This document shows, in pieces, positions 6,111-63,937 of a DNA stretch of 64,000 nucleotides. A program made the translations under genes and the position numbers. The stretch spans positions 4,154,001 to 4,218,000 of the forward strand of contig NZ_RAPR01000001.1 of the NCBI RefSeq assembly GCF_003610235.1, written 5' to 3'. How positions within the stretch are numbered: position 1 is the first letter of the stretch; every line of letters starts with the position of its first letter. This DNA comes from Catellatospora citrea (GTDB taxonomy: Bacteria > Actinomycetota > Actinomycetes > Mycobacteriales > Micromonosporaceae). The notes below the pieces were generated by a model that saw only the letters and a list, made by a program, of their open reading frames with translations, made no database searches and was not told the origin of the DNA.

Positions 6111-6126
6111 TGTTTCACGTGAAACA
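6111..6126. promoter_or_regulatory. parS: parS site (left outlier)
   Basis: TGTTTCACGTGAAACA is a perfect match to the 16-bp palindromic ParB-binding consensus. It lies between two convergent genes just after a terminator, about 47 kb from the nearest other parS (52951) and on the other side of oriC. Confidence 0.93.
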
Positions 6127-19219: not shown

Positions 19220-19262
19220 GTGGAGCCTAGGAGAATCGAACTCCTAACCCCCGCCTTGCAAA
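19220..19262. repeat. attL: attL: duplicated 3' half of tRNA-Ala
   Basis: These 43 bases are identical to 33421-33463. The match stops at 19263 (C versus G in the tRNA), so no functional tRNA is encoded here. It is the left attachment site of the AICE. Confidence 0.95.
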
Positions 19263-19357
19263 CTTGAAGCACATAGTCGGGCGAGGCATGCCGACGCAGA
19301 GGGGCTGCGGATATCGTCTGCCGTTGTCAGCGCCAGCACCCCGACGTCGACCGCCTT

Positions 19358-19377
19358 GGCTGTACGGCTGGCTGTAC
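19358..19377 (+). repeat. Left arm-type repeats (integrase binding)
   Basis: Two direct copies of GGCTGTAC start at 19358 and 19370, 12 bases apart. The same pair with the same spacing is near the right end (33370 and 33382). Such paired short repeats inside both ends are typical of tyrosine-integrase or Xis arm sites. Confidence 0.6.
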
Positions 19378-19489
19378 TGCCAGTCATCATCGACCGATCG
19401 AACGCCGACACACCCGCCGCGCGTCTGTGCAGTCGCCCTACGACGGAAACTCGGTAAGCCATCGGCGCACATCGCGGTTAACCTTGGCC

Positions 19490-20101: not shown

Positions 20102-20129
20102 AGGCTGAACGCTTCATCCCATCCGTGGC

Positions 20130-21482: not shown

Positions 21483-21531
21483 TCAAACTCCTTCGTTACC
21501 CGCACCATCTGCGAGACGGGCTTGCGGCTAG

Positions 21532-23093: not shown

Positions 23094-23110
23094 CCCAGAA
23101 CCATAACGCT

Positions 23111-23202
23111 GACTAGCCAAGTTAGGAAAGTTGCGCTCTGAGTCTTGACTTGGCTAGCCAGGCTAACCTACGGTTCCTCTTGACCGACCTGGCTAGCCAG
23201 GT
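23111..23202. promoter_or_regulatory. Operator/promoter region with GGCTAGCC palindromes
   Basis: There is a half site GACTAGCCAAG at 23111, a palindrome CTTGGCTAGCCAGG at 23149-23162 and a perfect 16-bp palindrome ACCTGGCTAGCCAGGT at 23187-23202. The middle site sits inside a possible rightward promoter (TTGACT ending at 23150, TACGGT about 18 bases later), where a repressor would block initiation. This suits divergent control by the GntR protein. Confidence 0.65.
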
Positions 23203-37327: not shown

Positions 37328-37391
37328 TGTGGATAACGCTGTGGATCAGGGCCCGACCTGTGGATAAACAGTATGTCTATCCACAGGTCGG
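37328..37391. promoter_or_regulatory. DnaA boxes between gyrB and gyrA
   Basis: Two perfect DnaA boxes read TGTGGATAA at 37328-37336 and 37359-37367. The second is the left arm of a 14-bp inverted repeat (37353-37366 and 37378-37391) whose right arm carries CTATCCACA. They lie in the probable gyrA promoter region. DnaA binding could regulate gyrA or titrate DnaA. Confidence 0.75.
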
Positions 37392-40971: not shown

Positions 40972-41140
40972 GGCCCTCAGATGCCCCACCCGCCACCCCG
41001 GTTCCAAAGATCCACCGATCACCACGCGGTCGGCGTCGCTCCGGCCGCGTGGTGATCGGTGTCCCGTGTCCAGATGTCCAGCCTGACCTGAGCTCCCGAC
41101 CTGAAACAGCGATCATCGCCGTAGGCCCGGACGGGGCGGC

Positions 41141-41192
41141 GTTAAGAAGGGCACCTTCCTCTACGCATAGCGATAAGAAGGTGCCCTTCCTT
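41141..41192. repeat. REP-like inverted repeat element
   Basis: Two arms containing GAAGGGCACCTT and AAGGTGCCCTTC flank a 20-base spacer with CTCTACGCATAGCGA. Similar interspersed elements with AAGGGCNCCTTC arms are frequent in Micromonosporaceae genomes, to my recollection. It lies between the convergent ends of no annotated pair and may also act as a terminator for the DUF721 gene. Confidence 0.55.
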
Positions 41193-41266
41193 CGGTCGGG
41201 GCGGGGTGCGCCGCAGCGCCGGGTGGCGCAGGGGCGCAGCGTGGGGCGGGTAGTCGGGGTGGGAGG

Positions 41267-43810: not shown

Positions 43811-44959
43811 TCAGCGGCCCACCCTGATCGGCATGATCAGGTAGCGGAACCCGGGAATCGCCGCACCGTCGGCGTCGGCGGGGGTGATCACCGCGGGCTT
43901 GAACGGGTCGTTGAACGAGAACACCGCGGTCGGCGCGCCGAGCGCGGCCAGGCCCTCGATGAGGTACTGCGGGTTGAAGGCGATCGTCATCGACTCACCG
44001 GTGAAGGTGGCGTCCATCGCCTCGCTCGCCCGTGCCTCTTCGGTGCCGCCGGCCTCGACCACGAGACCATCCTCGCTGAAGCTCAACCGCACCGGCGTGG
44101 CTTTCTCGGCGACGAGCGACACGCGCTTGACGACCTCGACCAGCGCCGAGACGGTGACCCGGGCCTCGGAGGCGTAGCTGGGCGCGAACAGCGAGCGCAC
44201 CGGCGGGTACGACTGGCCGTCGAGCAGGCGGCTGGTGGTCCGGCGGGAGCCGCCGACCTTCGAACCGCCCAGGAAGCCGATCATGCCCTCGCCCGCGCCG
44301 CCACTCGCCAGCGCGATGGTGACGTCGCCACCGGTCGGGCCGAGCGTCTTGGCGGTGTCGGCCAGGGTGCGCGCCGGGACGAGCGCGTTGACGCTGATCT
44401 CCGGGTCGTCCGGCGTCCAGGTGATCTCCCGGATGGCCAGCCGGTAGCGGTCCGTGGCGAGCAGAGCCAGGGTGTCCCCGGACAGCTCCAGCCGCACGCC
44501 CGTCATCATCGGCAGGGTCTCGTCGCGCCCGGCCGCGATGGCGACCTGGGACACGGCCGAGGCGAACACCGCGGCGTCGACGCGGCCCGCGCTGGCGGGC
44601 AGCTCCGGCAGGGTCGGGTAGTCCTCGACCGGCATCGTCGGCAGGGTGAACCGGGCGCTGCCGCAGACCAGCTCCAGGTGCGCGCCGACGGCGGCGATCT
44701 CCACCGGCTTGGCCGGCAGGGCCTTGGTGATCTCGGCGAGCAGGCGGCCGGAGACCAGGGTCGCGCCGTCCGCGTCGGCCTGCACCTCCACGTCCACCTG
44801 GTTGGAGACCTCGTAGTCGAAGCCGGAGACGTGCAGGCGGCCGTCGGCGACCCGCAGCATCACGCCCGCGAGGACCGGCACCGAGGGCCGGCTCGGAAGG
44901 CTCTTGGCGGTCCAGGCCACGGCGTCGGCGAGCGCGTCACGCTCTACCCGAAACTTCAT
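43811..44959 (-). CDS. dnaN: DNA polymerase III beta sliding clamp
   Basis: The 382-residue protein has three beta-clamp domains: MKFRVERDALADAVAW at the start, the middle block TDRYRLAIREITW and the terminal FRYLIMPIRVGR that forms part of the partner-binding pocket. The start is ATG 44959, with GGAGGG seven bases upstream; the longer frame to 44980 is not needed. It is the processivity clamp of replication and faces away from oriC. Confidence 0.98.
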   Translation of the reverse strand: MKFRVERDALADAVAWTAKSLPSRPSVPVLAGVMLRVADGRLHVSGFDYEVSNQVDVEVQADADGATLVSGRLLAEITKALPAKPVEIAAVGAHLELVCGSARFTLPTMPVEDYPTLPELPASAGRVDAAVFASAVSQVAIAAGRDETLPMMTGVRLELSGDTLALLATDRYRLAIREITWTPDDPEISVNALVPARTLADTAKTLGPTGGDVTIALASGGAGEGMIGFLGGSKVGGSRRTTSRLLDGQSYPPVRSLFAPSYASEARVTVSALVEVVKRVSLVAEKATPVRLSFSEDGLVVEAGGTEEARASEAMDATFTGESMTIAFNPQYLIEGLAALGAPTAVFSFNDPFKPAVITPADADGAAIPGFRYLIMPIRVGR

Positions 44960-45065
44960 CTTCAGCCCTCCTGTGGTCACGTCGATGCTGCCAAGCTGAC
45001 CACTGAAACCTTAGGACCTCCGAGCGATCTCCCCTCGGCGACCCCTGTGGATCGGCGGCGGCCGA

Positions 45066-45525
45066 GCATCCACAACTTCCCGAACCCCGATGATTTCTTG
45101 ATTTCTCTCTTAGAGATAACTCCCGTCTTCATCATCGGTGCTGTGGAAACTGTGGATTAACGCCGTTACCCCTGGTCAGCACGCATGCAGGGCTGTGGAG
45201 GAGCGGTGGACGGGCGGTGGATAACCGGCCGAGTTCTCCACAGCCGGAGCTTCGTCCCCATGTTGTCCACCGGCGTCCACAGGTTATCCACCGGCAATCC
45301 CCAGTGGTTCTCCCCAAACTGTGGACACAGGCCATCCACGTTCTCCACAGCGATATCCACCGATCATGGCCCGCTGTCCACGGATCAAGGGCTCCGTCCA
45401 CACCGGCGTCCACACTCTTTCCACAGCAAGATTTTTGGCGGAATCTCTGTCCACATCCGTCCACAGCGGATCCACAGGCAATCCACCGGGTTATCCACGG
45501 AGTTATCCACGATCACTGTGGACAA
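45066..45525. other. oriC: Chromosomal origin of replication (oriC)
   Basis: About 25 TCCAC/GTGGA-centred DnaA-box-like sites lie in 460 bases, in both orientations. Near-perfect ones include TTATCCACC (45283), TTATCCACG (45491, 45503), TTGTCCACC (45263) and TTCTCCACA (45235, 45341). An AT-rich stretch (about 45089-45120, GATGATTTCTTGATTTCTCT...) next to the left boxes is a candidate unwinding element. It lies upstream of dnaN, as in streptomycetes, but is separated from dnaA by a sigma factor pair. Confidence 0.93.
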
Positions 45526-45605
45526 CGGGCAACCTTTCGCCTCCGCGGGCGACTTACTGGGGGCGTACCCGGCACGGAACACCCCTACCCACAAGGCGGA
45601 TCACG

Positions 45606-46142
45606 ATGGACGCATCGCGCGCCGAAGAGTTCGAGGCGTTCGTCCGGGGGCGGACACCGGCGCTGCTGCGAGCGGCGTATCTGCTCACCGGTGACCAGCA
45701 TCTGGCGGAGGATCTCGTCAATGACGCCCTGATCCGCACCCACCAGGTGTGGCACCGCCTGCGCGACAGCAGCCCGGAGGCGTACACCCGCAAGATCATG
45801 TATCACCTGCAGATCTCGTGGTGGCGTCGCCGCAAGCGCTCCCCGGAGCGGCTGACCGACCTGCCGCCCGAGCCCGGCGCGGGTCTGCGGCACGCCGTCG
45901 ACGAGCAGGCGCGGGCCGTCACCCGGCTCGCTCTGCAGGATGCGCTCGGCCACCTCGGCGCCCGCCAGCGTGCCGTGCTCGTACTGCGCTACTTCGAGGA
46001 CCGGACCGAGTCGGAGGTCGCCGAGCTGCTCGGCGTGACGGTCGGCACGGTCAAGTCGCAGTCGTCCAAGGCCCTGGCCCGGCTGCGCACGGTCGCGCCG
46101 CATCTGCTCGACTCCCCGATCAGCGACAGGAAGCTGCGATGA
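45606..46142 (+). CDS. SigE-family sigma factor between oriC and dnaA
   Basis: The 178-residue protein has region 2 PALLRAAYLLTGDQHLAEDLVNDALIRTHQVW and region 4 ESEVAELLGVTVGTVKSQSSKALARL (as blocks). It closely resembles the sigma factor at 7316-7840. The ATG at 45606 has AAGGCGG upstream. It is transcribed away from oriC toward the end of dnaA. Its stop overlaps the membrane partner start (ATGA). A sigma factor in this position is unusual; it could respond to initiation or merely be inserted. Confidence 0.92.
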   Translation: MDASRAEEFEAFVRGRTPALLRAAYLLTGDQHLAEDLVNDALIRTHQVWHRLRDSSPEAYTRKIMYHLQISWWRRRKRSPERLTDLPPEPGAGLRHAVDEQARAVTRLALQDALGHLGARQRAVLVLRYFEDRTESEVAELLGVTVGTVKSQSSKALARLRTVAPHLLDSPISDRKLR

Positions 46143-46900
46143 ACGACTTCTTCCGCGCCGGACTCGCCGACCTCGCGGTACAGGTCGAGCCCGTCGACCT
46201 GTACCCCCGGGTGCTCGTCGCCTCCCGCCGTCGGACCCGGCGCAGAACGGCCGCGGCGCTCGTCGCCGTCGCGGTGCTCTCCGGCGGCACGGTCGCCGCG
46301 ACGACGCTGTACACCGGGCGGTCGGCGAGTCCGGTGGTCACGTCCTCCGCGTCGGCCACCGCTTCCGGGACCGCCCTGCCGTCCCCCACCGCGGCCGGGT
46401 CCGTGCCGACCGTCGACGTCGGCAACTCTTCCTTCGAGTTGCCGGAACTGGTGCTGTGCCCGGCGGGCCGGCGGACCTTCGTCGACGGCGTCGAGAAGGA
46501 CCCTCCTTATAACCGGCTGTCCGTCTCCGAGCTGTCGCCGCCGGTGCGCGCCGATCTCGACGGGGTGCCCGGCGACGAGCTGGTGGTTCTGGTCAGCTGC
46601 CGGATCGACGGGATCTTCACGCGCGATCAGCTGCTGGCGCTGACCGTCGCCGACGGCACGCTCCGCCCGCTCGGCTTCGTGCTCGATCCGGCCACTTTCG
46701 CGTTCGGGCCGTGGATCGACCCCGCGCAGGTGTCGGTGCGCGGGGACGTGGTCACGGTGCGGGTCGAAGGCCGTGGCAACGACGACGGGGCCGCGCACAT
46801 CCAGCCCGAGGTGCGCGGGTTCGCGTACCGTGATGGGGCTTTCGTCCAGGTCAGCGGGCCGACGCACCCGCCGCCGCCGCTGCCCCCTAGATCTGCTTGA
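46139..46900 (+). CDS. Membrane-anchored partner of the oriC-proximal sigma factor
   Basis: The 253-residue protein has a cytoplasmic start (NDFFRAGLADLAVQVEPVDLYPRVLVASRRR) much like that of the 6180-7319 protein. One TM helix (about 40-57), a Ser/Thr/Ala linker and an extracytoplasmic domain with two cysteines (VLCPAGRR, VSCRIDG) and a Pro-rich tail follow. There is no zinc anti-sigma motif. It overlaps the convergent 3' end of dnaA by 14 bases. Confidence 0.82.
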   Translation: MNDFFRAGLADLAVQVEPVDLYPRVLVASRRRTRRRTAAALVAVAVLSGGTVAATTLYTGRSASPVVTSSASATASGTALPSPTAAGSVPTVDVGNSSFELPELVLCPAGRRTFVDGVEKDPPYNRLSVSELSPPVRADLDGVPGDELVVLVSCRIDGIFTRDQLLALTVADGTLRPLGFVLDPATFAFGPWIDPAQVSVRGDVVTVRVEGRGNDDGAAHIQPEVRGFAYRDGAFVQVSGPTHPPPPLPPRSA

Positions 46901-48515
46901 TGCGGTTGGTGAGTTCGGCGATCTGGTTGTAGAGGGAGCGCCGCTCCGCCATCTGCTGCCGGATCTTGCGGTCGGCGTGCATGACCGTGGTGTGGTCGCG
47001 GCCGCCGAAGGCCTGCCCGATCCGGGGCAGCGAGAGGTCGGTCAGCTCGCGGCACAGATACATGGCCACCTGCCGCGCGTTGACCAGCACCCGGGAGCGC
47101 GAGTGGCCGCGCAGGTCCTCCAGGCTGACGCCGAAGTACTCCGAGGTCGACAGCATGATCTGGTCGGCGGTGATCTCCGGTGCGGCGTCGTCGGGGATGA
47201 AGTCGCGCAGCACCTCCTCCGCGATCGACAGCTTGACCTGCTCGCGGCTGAGGTTGGCGTACGCCGTGACGCGGATCAGCGCGCCCTCGAGTTCGCGGAT
47301 CGAGTTCGACACCCGGGAGGCGATGAACTCCAGCACGTCGGCCGGGGCGTGCAGGCGCTCCTGGGCGGCCTTCTTCTGCAGGATCGCGATGCGGGTCTCG
47401 AGGTCCGGCGGCTGGATGTCGGCCAGCAGGCCCCACTCGAACCGGGTGCGCAGCCGGTCCTCCAGCGTCGACAGCGCCTTGGGCGAGCGGTCGGAGGTGA
47501 TGACGATCTGCTTGTTCGCGTTGTGCAGGGTGTTGAAGGTGTGGAAGAACTCCTCCTGGGTCCGGTCGCGCTTCTCCAGGAACTGGATGTCGTCGATCAG
47601 GAGGATGTCCACGTCGCGGTAGCGGCGCTGGAACGCGCTGGCCTTGTCGTCGCGGATCGAGTTGATGAAGTCGTTGGTGAACTCCTCGGTCGACACGTAC
47701 CGGACGCTGCGGGCGTGGCCGAGCTCCTGGGCGTAGTGGCCGATCGCGTGGAGCAGGTGGGTCTTGCCCAGCCCCGAGCCGCCGTAGATGAACAGCGGGT
47801 TGTACGCCTTCGCCGGGGACTCGGCGACCGCCACCGACGCGGCGTGCGCGAACCGGTTGGAGGAGCCGATGACGAAGGTCTCGAAGCGGTACTTCGGGTT
47901 CAGCTTGTTGCCGCCGGCGTCGTTCGCGGCCGAGCCGGGTGTGGCGCCGGGACGGCGCTCCCGTTCCTCGCGCACCGCCGCGAGCGGGTGCGGCACGGCG
48001 CGGCTGTCCATCGGGCCGGTGCCCCGGCCGGGGCCGGAGTCGGAGGGTCCGTCGCGGTCGGCGGTGCGCAGCACGGCGGCGCGCACCGGGGCGACCTCGG
48101 GGTGCCGCGGCACCGGGACGGCGAACAGCGCGTCCTCGCCGTCGGCGGCGGGCGCCACGACGGGGTGCTCGGTGGGCGGCGGGGTGTAGACGGGCGCGGT
48201 GTACGCCACCGGGGTGTATTCGGTGGGCGGCGGGGGCGGCGGCGTCGGGCGGGCCGCGGACTCGTCCGGGGGCCGCACCTTCACGGCCACCTGCACCGGC
48301 CGACCCATGATCCGGGACAGCGTGTCGGTGATGGCGGTGCGCAGCTTCGTCTCGATGATGTCGCGGATGAACGCGTCCGGCACGCTCAGCAGCACGAGGT
48401 CGTCGACCACCGCGAGGGCCTGGGTGAGCCGCAGGTACGCGCGGTGCTGCGCCGAGACGATCTCGTCGGCCAGCTCGTCGGTGGCAGCCAGCCACACGGC
48501 GTTGAGGTCGCTCAC
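46887..48515 (-). CDS. dnaA: Chromosomal replication initiator protein DnaA
   Basis: The 542-residue protein has domain I (1-80, DnaB/partner contact) and a long Pro-rich domain II (about 85-205) typical of high-GC actinobacteria. The AAA+ domain III has Walker A YGGSGLGKTHLLHAIG (245-252) and Walker B DILLIDDIQFLE. Domain IV carries the DNA-binding signature GRDHTTVMHADRKI. The GTG at 48515 is the start. It binds the boxes in oriC and, probably, those upstream of its own gene. Confidence 0.98.
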   Translation of the reverse strand: MSDLNAVWLAATDELADEIVSAQHRAYLRLTQALAVVDDLVLLSVPDAFIRDIIETKLRTAITDTLSRIMGRPVQVAVKVRPPDESAARPTPPPPPPTEYTPVAYTAPVYTPPPTEHPVVAPAADGEDALFAVPVPRHPEVAPVRAAVLRTADRDGPSDSGPGRGTGPMDSRAVPHPLAAVREERERRPGATPGSAANDAGGNKLNPKYRFETFVIGSSNRFAHAASVAVAESPAKAYNPLFIYGGSGLGKTHLLHAIGHYAQELGHARSVRYVSTEEFTNDFINSIRDDKASAFQRRYRDVDILLIDDIQFLEKRDRTQEEFFHTFNTLHNANKQIVITSDRSPKALSTLEDRLRTRFEWGLLADIQPPDLETRIAILQKKAAQERLHAPADVLEFIASRVSNSIRELEGALIRVTAYANLSREQVKLSIAEEVLRDFIPDDAAPEITADQIMLSTSEYFGVSLEDLRGHSRSRVLVNARQVAMYLCRELTDLSLPRIGQAFGGRDHTTVMHADRKIRQQMAERRSLYNQIAELTNRIKQI

Positions 48516-48673: not shown

Positions 48674-48899
48674 TTCTCCACAAGTTATCCACAGGCTGTG
48701 TGTCGATCGGTATCCGGGGTCCGGCTGGTGTGGGTCGCCCTATCCGGCGCAAGAGCGCCTGCAACACGGCCCACCGTGCCGAACGAGCCACCTTATTGCC
48801 CGGTTTTGCGGTAACCGCCACAATTAATGGGCAGCGCCGTCAGTCGGGCACTCCGGCACGCTAACAGGGTTATCCACAGGCGTCCACCTGTTGTCCACA
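48674..48899. promoter_or_regulatory. DnaA boxes upstream of dnaA
   Basis: TTATCCACA occurs at 48685-48693 and 48870-48878 (both perfect), with TTCTCCACA at 48674 and TTGTCCACA at 48891-48899, and TTATCCCC nearby. They lie in the 668-base region between dnaA and rpmH and fit autorepression of dnaA. The rest of this region shows no gene; TTGGCG and TACCCT at about 48988-49016 could be an rpmH promoter. Confidence 0.75.
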
Positions 48900-49183
48900 G
48901 CTTCACTCTCGGTGAGTGTTGATAACGACACTGTCGGTTGCCACCGAGCGCTCGCTGTTGACACGATGAGTGAGCTGCGAAGAGTTCTTGGCGGACATCG
49001 ACCGCACGTGTACCCTGGAGCGGTTGCTCCATCACCCTCTGCTAGGGTGTCGGTTGCGGCGTCCGCCCTGACTCAGACAAGATCGAGATCCTTCGTCCCG
49101 ATCCTGCCGTCAACCGGGCGGTGCATCCGCGAGAAGCTAGAACATCCCCGCTCAAGGGCGGGGCGATCCCCAGGAGACCTGAC

Positions 49184-51658: not shown

Positions 51659-52401
51659 GTTCCGACGACGTGACGGAGCCGGTCATCCCCGACGGGGTGA
51701 CCGGCTCCGTGCTCTCCCCCGACCTTCGTCCGGCCGCCGAGGCGCTGTTCGGCGACCGGCTCGACACCGCCACGCGTTACGTGGCGCTGCTGGCCACCGA
51801 CGGCGTGGTGCGCGGCCTGATCGGCCCGCGCGAGGCCCCGCGGCTGTGGGACCGGCACCTGCTGAACTGCGCCGCCGTGGCCGAGCTGATTTCCCCGTCC
51901 GCCACGGTCGTCGACGTGGGCTCCGGAGCGGGTCTGCCCGGTATCGTGCTCGCAGTGGCTAGACCGGATATTTCGGTCATTCTGGTTGAACCACTGGCAC
52001 GTCGGACCGCCTTCCTGGAGGAGGCGGTGGCGGCCCTCGGCCTGACCGGCCAGGTCACCGTGGTACGCGGCCGCGCGGAGGAGCAGATCGGCCTGCTCAG
52101 CGCGGACGTGGTCACCGCTCGCGCGGTGGCGCCGCTGGACCGGCTGGCGGGCTGGTGTCTGCCGCTGGCCTCACCGGGCGGCCGCCTGCTGGCGCTCAAG
52201 GGGATGTCCGCCGCCGACGAGATCGTGGAGCACGGCGACGCCGTCGCCCGGCTCGGCGGCGGAACGCCCGTGATCCACCAGTGCGGCGTCGGGCTGATCG
52301 ATCCGCCGACCACCGTGGTGGAGATCGTCCGGGAGCGTGAAGTCGTGCCGAAGACTGCCAAGCCGTCCCGGCGGGCAGGGCGCGGAGGACGCCGGCGCTG
52401 A
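51655..52401 (+). CDS. rsmG: 16S rRNA (guanine527-N7)-methyltransferase
   Basis: The 248-residue protein has SAM motif [36 protein letters not shown], and the GidB-type [23 protein letters not shown] with LLALKG. It methylates G527 of 16S rRNA, whose loss gives low-level streptomycin resistance. GTG 51655 is coupled to jag; the longer frame is not favoured. Confidence 0.95.
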
Positions 52402-52921
52402 GCGGTGCGCCCTCCGCTCACGGAGAGGGCGCACGACGATGGGTGTCCTACAAACCGACGGTGCCGGTGCGTCCGCCCCGGCCGACCTGCCGTACCCCCG
52501 TACCTATGCGGGCATGTTCCCCGGGGCGGGCGCGGCCATCCGCTCGCCCCTGTCCGGCGCGGTGCTGGCGACCGGCACGCCACCCGCACGGCGGGTCATG
52601 CGTGCCGCCCCCGCCGCGCCCGTCGCCGGGGGTTGGCCGGGTGCTTCCGCGGCACAGCGACGACTCGGATGTCGCATGTCACTCGTGCCGGGATTCTTGG
52701 TGTATGTCCAGCCAGAAGGCGGTCTCGGGCGTGCCCAACCGGACGACTGTGGTAGCTTCCGTCGCCCGACCGCCGTAGGCTGGCCGCGCGTCGATAATGT
52801 GGACCCGACTGTCGCGGGTGCGGTCGTTGCACCGCCGGCAGAGACGCCAGCGCGCGCCGGACCGGCCGGCGCAGCCATCCGATCCGATGCGGGCAGGGAT
52901 GACACGGTGCAGGAATACGGC
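52402..52921. other. Region between rsmG and parA
   Basis: About 520 bases contain no separate gene I can support. The parA frame remains open through it to 52337, so a longer ParA (from ATG 52438) cannot be excluded. The translation there is low-complexity Ala/Pro/Gly without conserved blocks, so I treat it as leader and promoter sequence. Confidence 0.5.
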
Positions 52922-54193
52922 ATGAGCCTCCCCCAGGGCTCTTACGGCGTTGTTTCACGTGAAACATCAACCCCGGCGCAGCGAGGCGCCGCCAACCCGG
53001 GCTCCGGTATGAGGCCGACCGTCGCGAACACGTATACGTCTAGCGCGGCGGACTCCTACCCGGTGCCCAGTGGTCCGGCGAGTCCTGACGCGACCGGTTT
53101 CCGCGCGACGGCCTCGGTGCCGCCACCGGGGAGCAGTGTGCCGCCCGCGGAGTTCTCATCGGCTCCGCACGGCGCCACCGGCTACGTGCCGGTGTCCGCT
53201 CCCCCGGCCAACCGGCCGCCGTCGCCCCGCCCTCAACCCAGTTCTACGCATGTCGCGGGTGAGGATCAGAGTGCGACCGCGTACGGTGCTTCTGACGCGA
53301 ACACGACAGCGTCCGGTAGTTCGGAGGACCCACCGTTGGCCATGGAAGCGATGCGCGCCGTACAGATCCTGAACCCGAGCGGCGAGGTGACCATGCCTCG
53401 CCCGACCCGGCAGCGTGTCATGTGCGTCGCCAACCAGAAGGGCGGCGTGGGTAAGACCACCACGACCGTGAACCTTGCGGTGGCCCTGGCCCTGCACGGC
53501 AACCGTGTCCTGGTGGTCGACCTCGACCCGCAGGGCAACGCCTCGACCGGACTCAACGTGCCGCACCACGCGGGCGTTCCGGACGTCTACGACTGTCTGA
53601 TCGACCAGGTGCCGATGGAGGAGGTGGCGCAGGCGGTCGAGGGCATCCCGAACCTCTACTGCGTGCCGGCCACCATCGACCTCGCCGGCGCCGAGATCGA
53701 GCTCGTCTCCGTGGTCGCCCGCGAGTCGCGGCTCGGCCGCGCGATCCAGGGTTTCCCGATGGAGTTCGACTACGTCTTCATCGACTGTCCCCCGTCGCTG
53801 GGCCTGCTCACGGTCAACGCGCTGTGCGCCGCCCAGGAGGTGCTCATCCCGATCCAGTGCGAGTACTACGCGCTGGAGGGTCTCAACCAGCTCCTGAACA
53901 ACATCAACCTGGTGAAGGCCCACCTCAACCCGAACCTGGACGTGTCCACGATCCTGCTGACCATGTACGACCGCCGCACCCGCCTCGCGGACGCGGTCGA
54001 GCAGGACGTGCGCAACCACTTCGGGGAGAAGGTGCTGACCTCTGTCATCCCCCGCAACGTGCGCGTCTCCGAGGCACCGAGTTACGGCCAGTCGGTCATG
54101 ACTTATGATCCCGGTTCGCGCGGAGCCACCAGTTACTTCGAGGCCGCGCAGGAGATCGCCGAGCGCGGCGCGAAGATCGGAGTTGCGGCATGA
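52922..54193 (+). CDS. parA: Chromosome partitioning ATPase ParA
   Basis: The 423-residue protein has a long disordered N-terminus (about 1-155) and the ParA/MinD fold with deviant Walker [36 protein letters not shown], Walker [18 protein letters not shown] and [13 protein letters not shown]. The start at ATG 52922 has AGGAA seven bases upstream; GTG 52907 is an alternative. A parS site is read in frame as VSRET near residue 12, an arrangement also seen in mycobacterial ParA. ParA moves ParB-parS complexes along the nucleoid. Confidence 0.95.
52951..52966. promoter_or_regulatory. parS: parS site inside parA
   Basis: A perfect TGTTTCACGTGAAACA lies in the 5' coding part of parA, translated as V-V-S-R-E-T. 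ParB bound here could also affect parAB expression. Confidence 0.95.
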
Positions 54194-54233: not shown

Positions 54234-55280
54234 ATGACCCCGCCCCCCGTTCGCAAGGGAGGCCTCGGCCGTGGTCTCGGCGCGCTGATCCCGTCGGCCC
54301 CGGTCGCGCCTGCGGCCCCTACGGCGGCCCCAGTGCCGGCGCAGGCCGCTCCGGTCGAGGTCATGCCGGTCTCCGCTCCCCCGGCCACCACGGCCGCTGT
54401 GGAGGCCCCACAGGTGCCACAGGCCGTGGAGATGCCTCCCCCGGCGCAGGTCTCGGACCTGGCACCCGTGCCCGGTGCGCGGTTCGCGGAGATCCCGGTC
54501 GGCTCGATCGTGCCCAACGCGAAGCAGCCGCGGCAGATCTTCGACGACGAGATGCTCGACGAACTGAAGATCTCCATCCAGGAGGTCGGCTTCCTGCAGC
54601 CGATCGTCGTCCGCGAGCTCGGCCAGGACAAGTACGAACTCGTCATGGGCGAGCGGCGCTGGCGTGCCGCCCAGGCCGTCGGCAAGGAGATGATCCCGGC
54701 GATCGTGCGGGACACCCGCGACGACGCCATGCTGCGCGACGCCCTGCTGGAGAACATCCACCGGGCACAGCTGAACCCCCTGGAAGAGGCTGCGGCATAC
54801 CAGCAGTTGCTGGAGGAGTTCGGCGCCACGCACGACGAGCTGGCCAAGAAGATCGGCCGCAGCCGGCCGCAGATCTCCAACACCATCCGCCTGCTGAACC
54901 TGCCCCCGCAGGTGCAGAAGCGGGTCGCCGCCGGGGTGCTCTCCGCGGGCCACGCGCGGGCGCTGCTCAGCCTCGACCAGGCCGACGCCCAGGACAAGCT
55001 GGCGACCCGCATCGTCGCCGAAGGCCTTTCGGTGCGGGCGACCGAGGAGTTGGTGACGCTCGCCAACGCCGAGGGTGAGGCGAAGCAGCCCGCCGCCAAG
55101 CGGCGCGCCAAGCCGCACGCCCCGGCGCTGGTCGATCTGGCCGATCGGTTGTCGGACCGGTTCGACACCAAGGTGAAGGTCGACATCGGTCGGAGCAAGG
55201 GCAAGATCACGATAGAGTTCGCGACGGTAGACGACCTGGAGCGGATTGTCGGGATCATCGGCGTGGAACAGCAAGAATAG
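54234..55280 (+). CDS. parB: Chromosome partitioning protein ParB (CTPase)
   Basis: The 348-residue protein has an N-terminal ParA-stimulating segment ([14 protein letters not shown]), a Pro/Ala linker, the CTP-binding domain ([57 protein letters not shown], as blocks) and helix-turn-helix [23 protein letters not shown] for parS. The dimerisation domain is at the C-terminus. ATG 54234 is used. It loads at parS and spreads as a clamp. Confidence 0.96.
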
Positions 55281-55294
55281 ACTAGGTTAATGAA

Positions 55295-55325
55295 GCGGGT
55301 CGCCCTGATGGGCGGCCCGCTTTTC
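55295..55325 (+). terminator. Rho-independent terminator after parB
   Basis: An 11-bp stem GCGGGTCGCCC/GGGCGGCCCGC with a TGAT loop is followed by TTTTCTGT. It ends the rpmH-parB transcription block. Confidence 0.9.
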
Positions 55326-55461
55326 TGTCTCCGGGCAGTTGTGATGTCGGCGGCGACTGTCGGCCGTCCGCGCATGCGGGCAGGTTCTCGCGTGCCGACC
55401 GTGCAGGGGTGTCGAGTCCGTCGCGATCCTGGGCGGGCGACCTGATGTGCTCGAATACTGT

Positions 55462-55578
55462 CGGGTGCTCGGGTGCTCGGGTGCTCGGGTGCTCGGGTGC
55501 TCGGGTGCTCGGGTGCTCGGGTGCTCGGGTGCTCGGGTGCTCGGGTGTCGGGTGTCGGGTGTCGGGTGGTCGGGTGGT
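55462..55578 (+). repeat. Tandem 7-8 bp repeat array after parB
   Basis: Ten perfect copies of CGGGTGCT (8 bp) from 55462 are followed by three copies of CGGGTGT (7 bp) and two of CGGGTGGT. Such an array is prone to slippage, so copy number probably varies between strains. Confidence 0.95.
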
Positions 55579-56087
55579 CGGGCCGGGTGGATGGCGACTG
55601 GCGGCACGCGGTTACGGCGGCCGGGCATGGTTCGGCGGTGTCGGCCGGTCGATCATCACCGCCGGGTGGCTGAGGCTTGATCCCCGGTCTTCCGATACTG
55701 GGGCTCGGCACGGTCTCGGTTCCTTGCCGGCGATCGCCTTCGTTGGCTGAGTCGGCCACCCGGCTTGGCGTCACCGTGGCCGGTGCGGCCGCGACCGATG
55801 CGGGACTCGCAGGGGTGCCGCCCGGCGAAGCTGGTTCCGTGCCGACAGACCGGTTTGATGCCGGATTGGCCGGGCCGGTGAACCATCAAGAGGCCCACGT
55901 CCGAGACCTTGAAGCCCGGGGATGCCGTTCCGTGCGACCCGACCTCGGTGCGTTCAATCCGGCGTGCTCCCGTTCTGGCGTGCCTCCGCCTCGGACCGGT
56001 CGGGCGTGCCGCGGACCCGACGTGGCCCCAGCTGCGCACGTAGGAGCCCTCGGTTTCGGGCTGGCCCCGTGGGTGGTCCAAGGTCTC

Positions 56088-56193
56088 GTGTGCGGTCCAG
56101 GTCCGTGGGCGGTCCGGGTCTTGTGTGCGGTCCAGGTCCGTAGGCGGTCCGGGTCTCTCGCGTGTGGTCCAGGTCCGTGCGCGGTCCAGGTCT
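56088..56193 (+). repeat. Imperfect 35-37 bp tandem repeats
   Basis: Three diverged copies each contain GCGGTCCAGGTCCGT or a close variant (starting near 56091, 56126 and 56163). No function is recognised. Confidence 0.7.
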
Positions 56194-56885
56194 TGGGCGA
56201 GGTGGCGTGCCGCCTTCGGCAGGCGGGCCTGTTCCGTCCATCCTCTGCACGGGGTACGGAGTCGCTGACTTCTCCCCGACTGCCCAGCGGCTGTCCACTC
56301 ACGCTACGACATGGTGTTGAGAAGTGCCGCTCTTGCTGTTCCCATCGGTGTGCGCTGAGCGCAGTCAGGGTCCTTGCGTGACCGGCGCTCCCGCAGCCGG
56401 GTGGACAGGCGTAAGGGCGCGCGGCCGGCGGAGCCGGAATTGCTCGCCCGGAGGCCCCAAGTGGTGGACGGCGACCGGGCTCCCATGTCGCGGCCGGCCG
56501 ACGTACGCATCCCTGTCTCAACCGGCTCCCGCTCCACGAGTCTCCTTGGACGAAGGCACATGTTAGGAGTCAGGCACCGCTGACCGGCACGTGCCCGGGA
56601 AGGTGAGTCATGGCCCGGGCGAGCATTCGCGGCCCACGAGTTACCGCGGCGTTGGACCGATGCTCGGTGACCACGTGGCCTGCCTTCCGGCCGGGCCAAT
56701 GGCTTTCAGTGCGCCACGCGGCGGCGTCAGCCCCGGGGGTGGGTGAACCTCCCAGTTCCGGGGCGGCCGACTACATCTCCGCAACCAAGGAGCGCCGTCA
56801 CGTCCTACTGGGCGGAAGAGTGAGCGATTCGCGAACGGCAGCCGAGAACGGCAGACCAGTGTTGGTGGCGATACCGAGGACGCGA

Positions 56886-56901
56886 TGTTTCACGTGAAAC
56901 A
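56886..56901. promoter_or_regulatory. parS: parS site
   Basis: Perfect TGTTTCACGTGAAACA in the gene-free region, the first of six. Confidence 0.95.
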
Positions 56902-57669
56902 GGGAGATCGTCTTCAGCACGAACGTCGAGGCGACTTCGCCCGAAGACCGGTTGATGCTGGGGCGCTGGGCGCGTTGCACAACGCCGGACTTGGTGCGCC
57001 GCGGACCTCGATGCGGGACTGTCGTCCAGGGAGCGGCGCGGCCGGTGCGTTGCGGTGTCAGCCGTTGTCCGAACGTGGCTGCTTCGAAGGCGGTGGCGAC
57101 GATCGGCCTTCGGCTTTGGGTCGACGTCGACGGGGAGGGCGAACCCGCTTGACGACGTCAAGCGGTCGAAACCCTTCGACATGCCCCCACGCCTCGGCTG
57201 GCGTGCGTCGGCACCGAGCGCCCGGACTGTGTTGCCAGGCGGGTGGGAGTCTCAGGCGCCGGAGTTGCATGTGTGGCAGATGTGTGAAGGCCGCCCGGGC
57301 ACGCGTCCGACCCTACTGAGAGATCCGTCATGACTCTGCCGCGAGTGCGGGCACCCGGGGGCAACCAGGCGGCGTTCCGTCGTTGGAGGCACGATCATCT
57401 TCGACAACATGCGCCACGTGGGGAGTCGAGTACTGCGGGCGGCAGAGTCCGCCATTCCAGGGCATCAACTGCCGCGTACGCCGTTCCACGATGGTCGGCT
57501 GCGGATTGCCTCAGCCGTCCGCCCGCCGCGCCCCGGCCCCGCCCCGTGGCGTTGGTGGTGGCGTTCATGCGCAGCGGGCCGTGTGCCAGGAGTGGCCGGC
57601 GAGGACTGTTGGTCGGGGCTCGGGAATGCCGCATCGCGTGGAGCCCCTGAGATTCAGTGACGATCTCTT

Positions 57670-57685
57670 GGTTTCACGTGAAACG
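57670..57685. promoter_or_regulatory. parS: parS site
   Basis: GGTTTCACGTGAAACG: perfect 14-bp core GTTTCACGTGAAAC with variant end bases. Confidence 0.92.
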
Positions 57686-59416
57686 TCGACCCGGGCGGCT
57701 TCGTGCACGACGGTGTGCTTGTGGAGCGGACCCCACGCGACGGGAGTTGCTCGGCATCAGGGTGCCGCGTCGGCCACCACGTGGGGCCGCCCTCGGGAGA
57801 AGGCGGCGATCTGCCATCGCGATGGTGCTCGCTCGGTGATGCCCGAGCCGGCGGGTCGCGGCTCTCGAAGGTGCCGGCAGCCGAGAGCGGGTGCGGTGCG
57901 GCATCAGATCACGACCGGTGTCGTGACGGGCGACAGTGCCGCTGTGTCTTGGCGTGAGGTCGGCCCTCTGGGTGCCATCGGGCGGCCACGTCGCCGACCC
58001 GACGCGCGGCTACGTCTCCATTCCGCCACGGGCGCGCCGGGTCCGTGAGCGCACCCACGGGCAACAGTTCGGCTGCGTGTAGCGGGCCGCCATCCTGACG
58101 CGAGCGGGTACTGCGCCACACCGGTGAGGAGTAGGTCGTGGAGCGCTAAGAGCCACGGTGCGGTTGGTGCAACTGGAGGACGGGTGCTGGGGTGTGTGGA
58201 TCCCGAAGTCGAGGCGGATGGTGTTCGGCGTGGCCGTCGCAGGGAGGGCGGCGGGCTGTTCAAAGCCAGCGACTGGATGCGCGATGTTCCCGTGGGCCAG
58301 AGGGGCGTGCCCGTGGTCCGGCCTTCGGTCCGACACCCGGTAGGCACTGACCGGCGTTCTCGCATCGCCATCGCAGACTGGGTGTTCGACCCTGCCGGCC
58401 ACGCCATCGAGGCGGCCGACCGGTGCTGGGTAAGCGCGCGGGACGCGGCCTACACGTGAACCCGCAACTGCCTCCATGCAGTCGGCTGGGTCGTACGCCC
58501 CAACCACTGCAGCGAGGTTGCAGACCGAGGGTGTCCGTACCCGGGGCAGGCTGGAGTGGCTTCGTCGCCCCGGTTCCGAGCCCCGTCCGGCGACCAGGTT
58601 CAGATGCTCGGACGAACGCAAGGGCACTGGGGACACCTGAGGACGAGGGCACGGGGAGCAGCCGCCCCGACCGTCGGTCGCTCGGCGCACATGCCTTTGG
58701 TCTTGTCCGGTTCGCCGACTCGGTCAGCCAGCGCGTTGCGTCGGCGAGGCGACGCGGTGTCGCGGCACGCATCCTGCGCCGCGCATCCGCGTACGGCGGA
58801 TGCCGGTTGTGAATGCCGGGACGATGCAGGACTGCGGCGATGGGTTCTGCAACGAGGCGGTCGGCCGAACTCACTCCCCCGTCGTGTACGTGTCAGCCTG
58901 GCGCTGCCGGCACCGAAGACGGAAGCCAGTGCGGGTCTGGCAGCCGTGCCCACGAGCGCCGGAAGGTCGCGGCGGCTGCAGGTGTACTGCTTCACCGAAA
59001 CGAACAACGCGGTCAGCGACTCGATCTGCGGCAACCCGATCCGGGCGGCGCTATCCACGAACGCATGTTCTTGCCACGCCGTGGCTGCGGTGACCAGTTG
59101 CTGGGCCACACTGCCGGCGTGGCAGCTGGGCGGTGCAGACGACTTTGAGAAGTCGACGGAACATCGGCGCAGTACTCCAGGAAACCGGCGACCACGTACG
59201 TGCAGACCCGAGTGGCACCCAGGTGCTGTTACGTCAGTCAAGCGCGCTTGCGGCTTCGGATGTATGGCGGTTGGTCCTGGAGGGGCGGCACGTAGGTGAG
59301 TGCCTTCGCATGGGACCGTCGCGGACTTCGGAGGCGCAGGCCACCCCGGTCCTGAGTGGGTTGGCAACCCGAAACGGTAGTTCGAGGAAACCGCGGCGTG
59401 GCACTGGCGCGTGCGC

Positions 59417-59432
59417 TGTTTCACGTGAAACA
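59417..59432. promoter_or_regulatory. parS: parS site
   Basis: Perfect TGTTTCACGTGAAACA. Confidence 0.95.
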
Positions 59433-60754
59433 CGATGATCGCGTTTGTGGCCCCGGACGTTCTGGGTAACCGGCATCGCCGGTTCGCGGAGAGTTGTCCT
59501 TAGACCCCTGTCGCTCCCGGCTAGAACGCAATGTGGGGTGCGCAGCGTGACTAGCGACTTTGGCCCGGTCCGCCAGTGAGGCGTGCGAAACGCCCGCAGA
59601 TAGGCGGCCTAGCCGCGCAATGAAGTCGACGGCAGGTCGCCCTGGACGTGAGGACCGCACGGGCGAACGTGTGTGGACGCGGTTGGGGGCAACTCACGGG
59701 ATGCCGGCGATCGCCCGAGTAGCGCGAGTAGCGGAACCGTCGACGCGCCGGGGTGCGCATGAAATTCGCGGTGGCTGTTTGGTGGCATGGGCGACCGCGC
59801 GGCGGATCGTCAACTGCACGCCATCATGAATTCGTCGGCTCCGGGCAGTTCGTCGGCATGAGCACTCGCCCCGTGGCCGCGAAGTCTCCTCGACCGCGGA
59901 AGTGAGGCGCTGGCGCTGGAGCCCGGCCGAACCGGCCGCGAGTACGTCGGTGGGTGCTCATAGTCCTGAGAGCTAGAGCCTTGGTGGCGGACGGGTGTGG
60001 CATCGGCGGCACGCGCGACTAGAGAAAGTCCGACCCTGCGCGGTGCGTGCGGGGCAGGGGGCGTCCGACCGGAGCGCTGCGGAATGTGAGCGATCGAGAA
60101 GCAAACGTCGGGCTTTTCCGACGACGAGCCCGGTGCCGCGGATCAGCCCTGCGATGGGTCAGGCGAAGACGCCGAGCATCGAGGTGCAGGGCAAGGTGCT
60201 ACGGGCGCCGGCAGTCCAACACGTCAGGGGTTTCGGTCGGCGCCTGTTCCTGCCTTCAGGCCCGGTGCGGTCACGTCGGTCTGCGCCAGTGTGCGTGGAC
60301 GAGCGCGGAGGAGGACCGAGGGAAGCGGCACGACGGCGTGCGATGGCATCGCGTGGGGCACCAGTCTGCATGACGGATTGTTGTGGTGTCCGTCTAGGTG
60401 GCAAGCCGACCTGGCGCGCGACGCATGCTTCGTGGTCGGGACTCTCCTCCCGATGAGTGCGGCCGGCGGGTGTCGTCAGTTTCCGAGGGATGCGACGGTG
60501 GCGAGTCTTCCAGGTGCCCGACAGCCTTGCCGTCATGCCTCAGGCAAGCTCGACTGCGTCGACTCTGGCTGTTCGGGTTCGGGCCCTTGAGGTGCTGTGG
60601 CTGGTCGAGGGTTCCCCGGCTCGGCGCGCCCATTCCTGGCTCGGCGGAACCTTCACGGGCCGGTCGTTCATCATGCGAGGCCCACTCTGACCCGGCCGAG
60701 TCCGCGGTGGCGTCTCAGGCCAGAGCACACTCCCCCACGAGACCGTCAGATCGT

Positions 60755-60770
60755 GGTTTCACGTGAAACC
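60755..60770. promoter_or_regulatory. parS: parS site
   Basis: GGTTTCACGTGAAACC: perfect 14-bp core with a symmetric G/C at the ends. Confidence 0.93.
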
Positions 60771-60916
60771 ACTAGCACCGATGGCGTGCCACGCGACGAT
60801 GGCCGTCAGGCCGCGTGCGACGGCCGGCCCTGGTCCCCGCGGCCGGCGCGCGGGCACGACGCGGCACCGCAACAGGACGAGCAGTGTCCGCTGCCAACCT
60901 CAGTCGTTGAGTCTCG

Positions 60917-60965
60917 CCCGACGCCCGACGCCCGACGCCCGACGCCCGACGCCCGACGCCCGACG
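60917..60965 (+). repeat. Tandem 7-bp repeat array
   Basis: Seven perfect copies of CCCGACG lie 147 bases right of a parS site. They are in phase-free, non-coding sequence. Confidence 0.95.
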
Positions 60966-61347
60966 CGTCGTGTCTGGTGCAGGGCCGCGTCAGTCACGGG
61001 CGAGCTCCGGCGGACAGTGCGGTAGCGATGCTGCTAGCCGCAGCGTTGCGGAGTCGCTGGGCTCCGCCAGTCCGTCGCAGATTGGCCGACCCACGTGGAC
61101 CACATGAAGCACCAGCGGTGGGCCACCATGTCGTCAGGCGGGGCGGCCCACCGCCTTCCCGACAACGACCCGGCCCTGTCGATGCCACCGTGTGAACCTG
61201 CGTGCGGATGTCGCTGCCTGAGAACAAGCGGCACGTTCTCCGCCGGCACCATGCGTCCACGCATGCTGGCCGGACTGTGTGAGGCTCAGCCGCCGTCACG
61301 ACCGGAATAGTGCTGGATGCGCCACCACCACCGGAGCCGATCAGTTG

Positions 61348-61379
61348 CTCTCCGGCTCTCCGGCTCTCCGGCTCTCCGG
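61348..61379 (+). repeat. Tandem 8-bp repeat array
   Basis: Four perfect copies of CTCTCCGG. This is the third short-unit array in the gene-free region. Confidence 0.95.
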
Positions 61380-61802
61380 CTGCCGTTGACGCCGATCCCA
61401 TGGGTCGAGCGCTGTCGGGATCTCGGCACACGTGGGCCGGTGACGGTGGCTGGAGTGCTCGCCTCCTTCCAACGCCAACCCCGGCACCGGCCCGGTTGCC
61501 GAACCTGAACAGGGACTGTGCCGACGGTGCCCTGTTCCAGCGGTGGCGCCGGCCCAGTCTTCGTAGAAGGGCAACACGCCCAGGCACTTCTGCTGCGCTC
61601 AGCGCACCGGCCCCTGCCGACGTCTGGCACCAGCCGACGACCACGACCTCCGGCGGACCTGCCTCAACCCTCGCTGCCGCACCCCACTGACGGCCGCAGG
61701 ACGGGCGTGTTCGCCACGGGCCTGGGCCAGGTTCCGGGACGCCTGGGCGGTGATGAACGGGTGACGAGCGGGTGACGGGCGGCCGTACACAGGTCCAGGA
61801 AG

Positions 61803-62098
61803 TTATCCACAACCCGCATGCCCAAGGTCAACGATCTCCACCGGCCCACCCAAGTGCGAGGAAGGTCACGTATCCGCTGTCCACAGCCCTGGACCGTCCG
61901 ATTTCCACAGCCGAAAGCAAGTTATCCACAGGCCTTGTTTCACGTGAAACCACCGTCACGGGCGAGCCGAATCCATGTACTGCCAACGGGATCAGCACGT
62001 GAACAGATGTGACACCGGTCTGCGCGATGCCGGAGTAACGGGGGTCACCATGCCACATTCCACAGGCACACCTCCGCCTATCCACAAAGTTATCCACA
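61803..62098. promoter_or_regulatory. DnaA-box cluster interleaved with parS
   Basis: Perfect TTATCCACA occurs at 61803-61811, 61922-61930 and 62090-62098, with CTATCCACA at 62078-62086. Weaker TCCACAG sites are near 61878, 61903, 62058 and 62141. Two parS sites (61936, 62116) lie within 20 bases of perfect boxes. It is about 16.5 kb from oriC and distinct from it. Confidence 0.85.
61936..61951. promoter_or_regulatory. parS: parS site next to a DnaA box
   Basis: TGTTTCACGTGAAACC, perfect 14-bp core, begins six bases after a perfect DnaA box. Confidence 0.93.
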
Positions 62099-62115
62099 GG
62101 CACCCTGTGGGCTGT

Positions 62116-62131
62116 GGTTTCACGTGAAACC
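62116..62131. promoter_or_regulatory. parS: parS site next to a DnaA box
   Basis: GGTTTCACGTGAAACC, perfect 14-bp core, begins 18 bases after a perfect DnaA box and 77 bases before the next gene. Confidence 0.93.
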
Positions 62132-62180
62132 AGCCCGGGTGAATCCACAGCCGGGGGGAGACAGGACCGCCTGGCTGGGC

Positions 62181-62186
62181 TAGATT
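62181..62186 (+). promoter_or_regulatory. -10 element of a probable leaderless promoter
   Basis: TAGATT fits TANNNT and ends six bases before GTG 62193. There is no Shine-Dalgarno sequence. Confidence 0.55.
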
Positions 62187-62192
62187 CTGCAG

Positions 62193-62959: not shown

Positions 62960-63937
62960 TCAGCCGCGCTCGGCCGCCTGCATGACCAGGCGGGCGATCA
63001 CGTCGCCCAGGTCGAGCCCGCCGGCCTGCACCGCCATCGGGAGGAGGGACGTCTCGGTCATACCCGGGGCGACGTTGACCTCGAGGACCGTGCACTCCCC
63101 CGACGGCGCCACGATCAGGTCGACCCGGGACACGTCGCGCAGGCCCAGCGCCTGGTGCGCGGCCAGTGCCGTCTTGACCACCTCGGCGCTCGTCTCCGCC
63201 GACAACCGGGCGGGCGTGTGCCAGGTGGTCAGGCCGGCGGTGTACCGGGCCGCGTAGTCGTACACCCCGTTACTGGGCACGATCTCGACGGGCGGCAGCG
63301 CGAACGGTCCTTCGCCGAGGTCGAGCACTGAGACCGCTACGTCGACTCCCTCGACGTAGCGTTCTACCAGGGCGGTCTGGTCGTACGCGAAGCACCCGAC
63401 CATCGCGGCCGGCAGCGCGGAGGCGTCGCGGACCACCGCGGCGCCCAGCCCTGAGCCGCCCTGGGCGGGCTTGACCATCAGAGGCAGGCCGAGCCTGTCG
63501 ACGATGCGCTCCAGCACGGCGACGGCACCGAGTTCGGAGAAGCGGTCGTGCGGCAGGGCGACCCACTCGGGGGTGGGGATGCCGCACTCGACGAACACCG
63601 CCTTCGCGGACGGCTTGTCCCAGGCGAGCCGGGCCGAGCGCGCGTCGGGACCGACGTAGGGCACGCCGCACAGGTCCAGCACGCCGCGCAGTGAGCCGTC
63701 CTCGCCGGTGGAGCCGTGCAGGGCGATGAACACCGCGTCCGGCGGGTCGGACTTCAGTGCGGGCAGCAGCGCCACGTCGGCGTCGAGCATCTCCGCCTCG
63801 ACGCCGACGGCGCGCAGGGCGTCCAGCACCCGGCGGCCCGAACGGAGCGAGACGTCACGTTCGTAGGACAGGCCGCCCGCCAGCACCAGGCAGCGGAGAT
63901 CGGCTCGGACGACAGGCGCGGTGGACGGTGCGGTCAC
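62960..63937 (-). CDS. D-alanine--D-alanine ligase family protein
   Basis: The 325-residue ATP-grasp enzyme has LVLAGGLSYERDVSLRSGRRV at the N-terminus, VFIALHGSTGEDGSLRGVLDLCGVPYVG, the ATP-binding PLMVKPAQGGSGLGA, VERYVEGVDVAVSVL and the metal-binding VLEVNVAPGMTETSL (blocks). It would join two D-alanines for peptidoglycan, though some relatives have other specificities and the main Ddl may lie elsewhere. The start is GTG 63937, with GAGG directly before it and CATGAT six bases upstream as a possible -10. Confidence 0.85.
   Translation of the reverse strand: MTAPSTAPVVRADLRCLVLAGGLSYERDVSLRSGRRVLDALRAVGVEAEMLDADVALLPALKSDPPDAVFIALHGSTGEDGSLRGVLDLCGVPYVGPDARSARLAWDKPSAKAVFVECGIPTPEWVALPHDRFSELGAVAVLERIVDRLGLPLMVKPAQGGSGLGAAVVRDASALPAAMVGCFAYDQTALVERYVEGVDVAVSVLDLGEGPFALPPVEIVPSNGVYDYAARYTAGLTTWHTPARLSAETSAEVVKTALAAHQALGLRDVSRVDLIVAPSGECTVLEVNVAPGMTETSLLPMAVQAGGLDLGDVIARLVMQAAERG

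Follow-up and report, generated by a model that had tools for sequence, protein, structure and literature searches.

A gene-free spacer with six parS sites beside parB of Catellatospora citrea as a probable regional centromere

The chromosome of Catellatospora citrea carries, between the partition gene parB and a conserved gene here called P0002, a spacer in which no gene could be supported and which holds six exact copies of the ParB-binding site parS, GTTTCACGTGAAAC. The spacer was examined within a stretch of 64,000 nucleotides of contig NZ_RAPR01000001.1 (the window), and was compared with the corresponding DNA of other Micromonosporaceae. In the genus the six sites are kept while the DNA between them, hereafter the filler, is largely replaced. 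Our best reading of these sequences is that the spacer is a dedicated, predicted ParB-loading platform selected for its sites and not for the sequence between them, that is, a regional ParABS centromere of about 7 kb of filler DNA with six parS sites. We assign this reading a probability of about 0.68.

A first-pass annotation of the window, made from the sequence, had listed six parS sites in the interval, and exact matching reproduced both their number and their approximate spacings, which are 784, 1747, 1338, 1181, and 180 bp. The genome (9.33 Mb in four contigs, designated G000) contains eight exact parS, every one within the window, and a backwards control pattern was absent from it. When up to three mismatches were allowed, the window gave nine matches, compared to a mean of 1.16 and a maximum of 4 in 100 shuffles. 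The adjacent parB encodes a protein with N, HTH, and C domains, and ParA is encoded alongside; given the position of the ATPase domain, the parA start codon is well inside the open reading frame (ORF) that contains it. Both dnaA (46887-48515) and dnaN (43811-44980) are near the spacer, which places the parS cluster close to a putative oriC. The gap of 1.9 kb between dnaN and dnaA (44980-46887) has DnaA-like boxes at 45151-45517 with one mismatch each, and further DnaA boxes, exact or with one mismatch, are found at 48674-48917 and 37328-37377.

The proposal that the interval carries no supportable gene was borne out. A model of codon usage, with the genes of the window as its training set, gave no interval ORF a positive score (the best reached -7.3, compared to 21 to 622 for called genes). 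Scoring of open frames for their best sub-segment found no coding segment in the interval at thresholds of 20 and 25, and a single segment of 66 bp at a threshold of 15. Ten of the longer interval ORFs had nothing above the Pfam cut-off, and one weak match below it, to Ogr_Delta (E 0.043), was disregarded; the interval likewise had no Rfam family at the gathering threshold and no tRNA by ARAGORN. The sensitivity of the codon model is bounded by two cases: a 161-aa gene-like ORF in the same-genus genome G133 scored 18.8, just under the threshold of 20, and an ORF of about 190 aa in several deep-branching genera was missed and found by homology. Third positions of called genes have a GC content of 0.82-0.98, and the filler has 68.5%. 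Between the spacers of G000 and its nearest relative, G087, there are 125 indels, 109 of which are not multiples of three. A hidden gene in the spacer was rejected on codon scores, Pfam, Rfam, homology, and frameshifting indels. The idea that the spacer is a repeat or mobile element with further copies in the genome was also rejected, the only other match being one of 74 bp at 76% identity. The gene-free run measured 6966 bp, compared to 1297 bp for the longest run in 20 sampled stretches of 20 kb (400 kb) of the same genome. Those stretches had a coding share of 85.6% by score. The genome, described at first as compact, is not compact in size at 9.33 Mb.

The genus sample comprised 11 genomes, that of the window included, nine of which have parB and P0002 on one contig and hence an unbroken spacer. 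All nine spacers contain exactly six exact parS over lengths of 6.9-8.4 kb; sites 5 and 6 are 179-180 bp apart in each, and the other distances shift. The 11 genomes have seven to nine exact parS each, and 54 of the 73 in the nine genomes with unbroken spacers fall in the spacer, six per genome. G087 differs from G000 at 11% of fourfold-degenerate sites in parB and 9% in P0002, and all 84 parS bases are unchanged. Aligned gene bases of this pair are 93% identical, as is the dnaN-dnaA gap; the distal 412 bp of the spacer are 95% identical and the filler 76% (74% in a global alignment of the whole spacer). In this nearest pair, then, the filler diverges faster than fourfold-degenerate codon sites. 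With the more distant G129 (17.5-19% fourfold divergence), 3% of the filler could be aligned, compared to alignable intergenic gaps of 80-97% identity; the alignable parts lie around parS, at tandem repeats, and in the distal block. In the other six same-genus genomes 251 to 678 of the 6912 spacer bases align, and the median alignable filler was 3% among 20 same-genus pairs at 15-30% fourfold divergence. The retention of the site number in nine of nine spacers while the filler turns over supports the initial suggestion of a dedicated centromere-like stretch.

The third-position GC is high, suggesting that synonymous sites are themselves constrained, and the filler may therefore simply show a near-neutral rate. 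After masking of parS flanks and the last 420 bp, and with the close relative G087 left out, no 8-mer in the filler exceeded the shuffle level except two adjoining the parB stop; apart from those bases, a general extra motif in the filler was rejected. The half-parS GTTTCAC was seen 0 times in the filler with 3.7 expected, a weak depletion.

Comparison of the parB to ddl interval across the family had been suggested at the outset, and was carried out from parB to P0002, which has matches in 146 of 150 Micromonosporaceae genomes. The spacer was measured in 121 of the 150, that of the window included. Of the 29 left out, four had no match to ParB over its full length and one had no P0002; the best matches to the two genes fell on separate contigs in 11 and at distant places of a single contig in two. 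The remaining 11 were additional members of g12. The spacer ranges from 101 bp to 8.4 kb and holds 0 to 12 exact parS. No ORF scored above 20 in 106 of the 121 spacers, and 40 of these, from 11 genera, are at least 2 kb long; there are other spacers of the family that hold genes. Six of the 106 (L121, L122, L124, L125, L126, and L128) share the ORF of about 190 aa found by homology. Spacer length and parS number were correlated among the 106 genomes (Spearman 0.82) and among 34 genus means (0.81). Independent contrasts, for which spacers with scoring ORFs and the long-branch row G037 were dropped (105 rows, 104 contrasts), gave 0.43 with log length and 0.47 with length. Without the six spacers sharing the ORF and G133, the Spearman values were 0.84 (99 genomes) and 0.85 (30 genus means), and the contrasts, with these seven doubtful spacers dropped as well (98 rows, 97 contrasts), were 0.40 and 0.44. 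On the tree, which was built from two proteins with FastTree and has several long branches, the fewest long/short changes numbered 10, so that spacers moved repeatedly between the two states. In L116 and L118-L128 (g5, g8, g12, g14, g15, and g26), the ORF of about 190 aa, which is conserved, lies between parB and P0002 on either strand. One genome, G026 (L120, g26), has 47 exact parS, 12 of them in a gene-bearing spacer of 5.8 kb; the other 149 family genomes have 0-15. Outside the family, the gap after parB was 14-1163 bp in 41 actinobacterial loci (L168-L208), three of which have parS in it, and the longest of these gaps (L206) ends at a contig end.

The last part of the spacer, which holds sites 5 and 6 together with DnaA boxes, behaves unlike the filler (Table 1). 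Exact boxes are found at -389, -270, and -102 from P0002 in six of the nine same-genus spacers; the last two boxes lie within 2 bp of the same place in all nine, and the first in six. At least one exact DnaA box was present within 400 bp of P0002 in 77 of the 121 family spacers (20 of 39 genera), compared to three of 535 control pieces of 400 bp taken further inside spacers. The median gap from a DnaA box to the nearest parS was 22 bp (130 boxes). In the short-spacer genus g44, one parS and two or three boxes are found near P0002 in all seven measured genomes, and so the distal block may be the older core, with the long spacer a later addition.

The interior sites share another feature. In 29 of 108 same-genus flanks, exactly five bases separate parS from the tetramer GATC, with 0.52 expected and the flanks being partly related by descent, so that the counts are not independent; this was the most extreme case among all 4-mers at 26 offsets. 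Counting either side in the nine genomes, the box accompanies site 1 in seven, site 2 in eight, site 3 in eight, site 4 in two, and sites 5 and 6 in none; it is two-sided at four sites. In the conservation profile, the GATC box stays while most surrounding bases change, and GATC is not enriched in the filler overall (280 seen, 298 expected). The centres of GATC and parS are 14 bp apart, with GATC to one side or to both, which would put the box about one helical turn beyond the parS half-site. The parS-GATC composite was found in 32 of 354 family genomes: in all 11 of the window's genus (three to four copies each), in three of four of g39, four of five of g7, and the single genomes of g17 and g19, and also in eight genomes of g29, two of g4, and one each of g12 and g24, mostly as single copies in large genera. 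The genera g39, g17, and g19 share a supported clade with the window's genus; g10 and the adjoining g16 are without the box, and g7 falls outside. A box general to actinobacteria was rejected, with none of 455 flanks having it at that offset in 76 loci (L133-L208). Tentatively, and at less than even odds, we propose that Micromonosporaceae have a regional centromere set by the number of sites and not by the filler, to which GATC would add a second parS element in Catellatospora and some of its kin, at the interior sites and not the two distal ones, read by ParB or a partner.

In other systems, parS is known to be the point at which ParB loads onto DNA as a sliding CTP clamp. At the spacer, clamps would load at each parS and slide into the flanks, and since the sites are 0.2-1.75 kb apart their footprints would be expected to fuse into a single uninterrupted ParB domain, some 10-17 kb away from the DnaA boxes of the dnaN-dnaA gap. 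This merged domain would serve ParA-driven segregation and SMC loading, with the filler acting as a sequence-neutral track; through its distal DnaA boxes, the platform may also be linked to the initiation of replication. A hairpin after parB and the outward-reading P0002 could keep transcription low, a layout that fits ParB sliding away from transcription. By a strict rule without G-T pairs, which would not count the window's own hairpin with its G-T pair, 25 of 121 loci have a terminator-like hairpin no more than 150 bp from parB, compared to three of 605 shuffles. The spacer has one E. coli-type promoter match, with 0.4 expected by chance under what is a poor model for this genus. A quiet track for ParB might be helpful, and why the spacer is empty is the least secure part of our account. 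A published sliding model fits in vivo ParB profiles without transcription, its authors noting that the F plasmid may differ (PMC10387095), and roadblocks stop ParB sliding in vitro, bypass by dimer recruitment being possible (PMC9242446). For the number of sites, redundancy for robustness, as proposed for Corynebacterium glutamicum (PMC7083940), is an equally good reason.

Several observations weigh against a selected platform. The sites are no more evenly placed than at random, so that a regular spacing was rejected. Selection on length found no support, because the observed spread is close to that of unconstrained indel drift: the genus spacer lengths have a standard deviation of 554 bp, and the G000-G087 indels given random signs predict a standard deviation of 343 bp for the length difference, which scaled to a fourfold divergence of 0.25-0.45 becomes 524-703 bp, compared to about 783 bp between genus pairs. 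A paired test on the binary long/short state, with six pairs on well-supported branches, gave no support and had no power. Four g31 spacers of 3.3-4.8 kb have only one or two exact parS, plus near-matches. In two of the nine same-genus spacers, about the first 1.2 kb includes a gene or an ORF resembling one. Other parts of the window align poorly as well. A gap of 241 bp (41026-41266) is unalignable with G129, and its identity to G087 is 76% over 44%. The stretch at about 16-33 kb, which contains genes and seems to differ from the relatives by gene content, is unalignable with either genome. Finally, one parS was enough for wild-type-like growth in C. glutamicum (PMC7083940), and the array would then not be strictly needed.

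Much of this could also be accounted for if parS alone were selected and the filler were junk left by repeat slippage and the loss of old genes, persisting as genes under ParB would be silenced and useless, with length and emptiness having no function. Tandem repeats make up 7.1% of spacers of at least 2 kb without a scoring ORF, compared to 0.57% of control DNA (the window and two relatives), which suggests that spacers grow by slippage of repeats; the drift-like variation in length, the wide differences between and within genera, and the motif-free filler are in keeping with such an origin. Pure junk would not be expected, however, to show parS number rising with length after phylogenetic correction, nor would it explain why all nine unbroken same-genus spacers have at least six sites and a length of at least 6.9 kb, or why 400 kb sampled from the genome contain no gene-free run above 1.3 kb. 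We hold this by-product explanation to be unlikely, if well short of negligible.

Very improbable, in our judgement, is that the interval has a product that escaped recognition, either short proteins or a long RNA with a structured or regulatory role, and that the parS sites are incidental passengers. Genes can indeed sit near the parB end, as shown by the MazG-domain gene in the G109 spacer and the gene-like ORF of G133, which has no Pfam match; the negative codon scores, the lack of a Pfam match above the cut-off in ten of the longer ORFs, the lack of an Rfam family, the predominance of frameshifting indels, and a filler mostly unalignable with G129 all speak against this reading. An assembly artefact or strain-specific insertion is scarcely credible: parB and P0002 are on different contigs in two of the 11 same-genus assemblies (G016 and G051), suggesting that these assemblies break in the spacer, but nine genomes agree in site number and layout, and the genome has no second copy of the spacer beyond the short match noted above.

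Read as a regional centromere, the spacer belongs to a known kind, this length having so far been seen only in Micromonosporaceae; its new parts are the empty, interchangeable filler, the GATC box, and the end block of DnaA boxes and parS. It resembles the chromosomal ParABS systems of C. glutamicum and Streptomyces venezuelae in having ParA, ParB, the same parS core, and several sites near the origin. The respective reports describe 10 parS within 35 kb in C. glutamicum (PMC7083940) and 16-17 in S. venezuelae (PMC12511625). The annotators' view that the parS of actinobacteria are found mainly within genes or in the gaps between them agrees with C. glutamicum, where nine of 10 are intergenic (PMC7083940). 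Unlike the 35-kb spread of sites described there, most sites here are in one gene-free tract of 7 kb with fast-changing filler, and none of the 41 loci from other families has a measured gap after parB above 1.2 kb. Plasmid centromeres such as F sopC and P1 parS likewise are dedicated non-coding DNA beside a partition operon. The F plasmid sopC is a regular array of short tandem repeats, unlike the sites here at 0.2-1.75 kb, and P1 parS has box A and box B; the GATC box would be similar to a second box of the P1 kind lying beside the palindrome, and GATC is not known as the sequence of a ParB box. By analogy, eukaryotic regional centromeres also have fast-diverging filler and tandem repeats around a conserved function, the determinant here being sequence-specific parS and not a chromatin state. 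Among the titles listed in searches of openly licensed literature, none dealt with Micromonosporaceae parS arrays or gene-free centromeres, or with a box beside chromosomal parS, which does not establish absence from print.

Table 1. Features of the spacer and its surroundings (window coordinates)
Feature	Position	Strand	Remarks
ORF with parA	52337..54193	+	ParA-type ATPase domain at residues ~360-611; Pfam AAA_31 (6e-60), CbiA
parB	54234..55280	+	Pfam ParB_N, HTH_ParB, ParB_C
parB-P0002 spacer	55281..62192	.	Gene-free, 6912 bp; no positive codon score; Pfam/Rfam empty
Terminator-like hairpin	55293..55325	+	Directly after parB; 13-pair stem including one G-T, then T run; read from sequence, part listed computationally
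Tandem repeat, 8 bp	55461..55582	.	15.6 copies
Tandem repeat, 17/35 bp	56067..56195	.	
parS site 1	56887..56900	.	Exact GTTTCACGTGAAAC
GATC box	56906..56909	.	5 bp from site 1
GATC box	57662..57665	.	5 bp from site 2, other side
parS site 2	57671..57684	.	Exact GTTTCACGTGAAAC
parS site 3	59418..59431	.	Exact GTTTCACGTGAAAC
GATC box	59437..59440	.	5 bp from site 3
parS site 4	60756..60769	.	Exact GTTTCACGTGAAAC; GATC 3 bp off, not 5
Tandem repeat, 7 bp	60915..60966	.	7.4 copies (39.6 in G087)
Tandem repeat, 8 bp	61347..61381	.	4.4 copies
Conserved distal block	61781..62192	.	Sites 5 and 6, DnaA boxes; 95% identical to G087, 92% to G129; conservation profile
DnaA-box cluster	61803..62098	+	TTATCCACA at 61803, 61922, 62090; CTATCCACA at 62078
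parS site 5	61937..61950	.	Exact GTTTCACGTGAAAC; DnaA box 6 bp before
parS site 6	62117..62130	.	Exact GTTTCACGTGAAAC
P0002	62193..62798	+	Conserved 201-aa gene bounding the spacer, reading away from it
ddl (D-Ala-D-Ala ligase)	62960..63937	-	Pfam
Seventh parS	52952..52965	.	Exact; upstream of parA domain
Eighth parS	6112..6125	.	Exact; ~48 kb from parB; AAGATCGTC directly after

Some neighbouring features were also recorded. P0002 has no match in Pfam or NCBIfam; an HLHVWF motif and a weak PDB match to a histidine-triad protein (E 0.048) suggest that it may be a histidine-triad relative. In the four g31 loci (L059, L053, L099, and L092), the sequence GTTTCCCGTGAAAC, one mismatch away from parS, recurs in both orientations and may be a parS variant. 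Elsewhere in the window, a further 3.6 kb with weak coding score (18658-22277) is set among plausible genes, near a protein with a HEPN/Toprim N-terminal domain (20130-21482, minus strand), a GntR-type regulator (22227-23120, minus strand), and a maleylpyruvate-isomerase-family protein (18274-19272, minus strand). The region around it is unalignable with two close relatives, and the stretch looks like acquired genes of unusual codon use.

With the filler mostly replaced between related species and the anchors kept, the spacer amounts to a natural experiment on what a ParB centromere needs. It makes testable whether ParB spreading needs quiet DNA, and what number and distance of parS are required. 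The GATC box, if its proposed role is true, would add a new element to chromosomal parS, and the end block of DnaA boxes and parS is a candidate for connecting the initiation of replication with segregation. In addition, the filler would offer a gauge of mutation in near-neutral DNA next to the origin of an actinobacterium.

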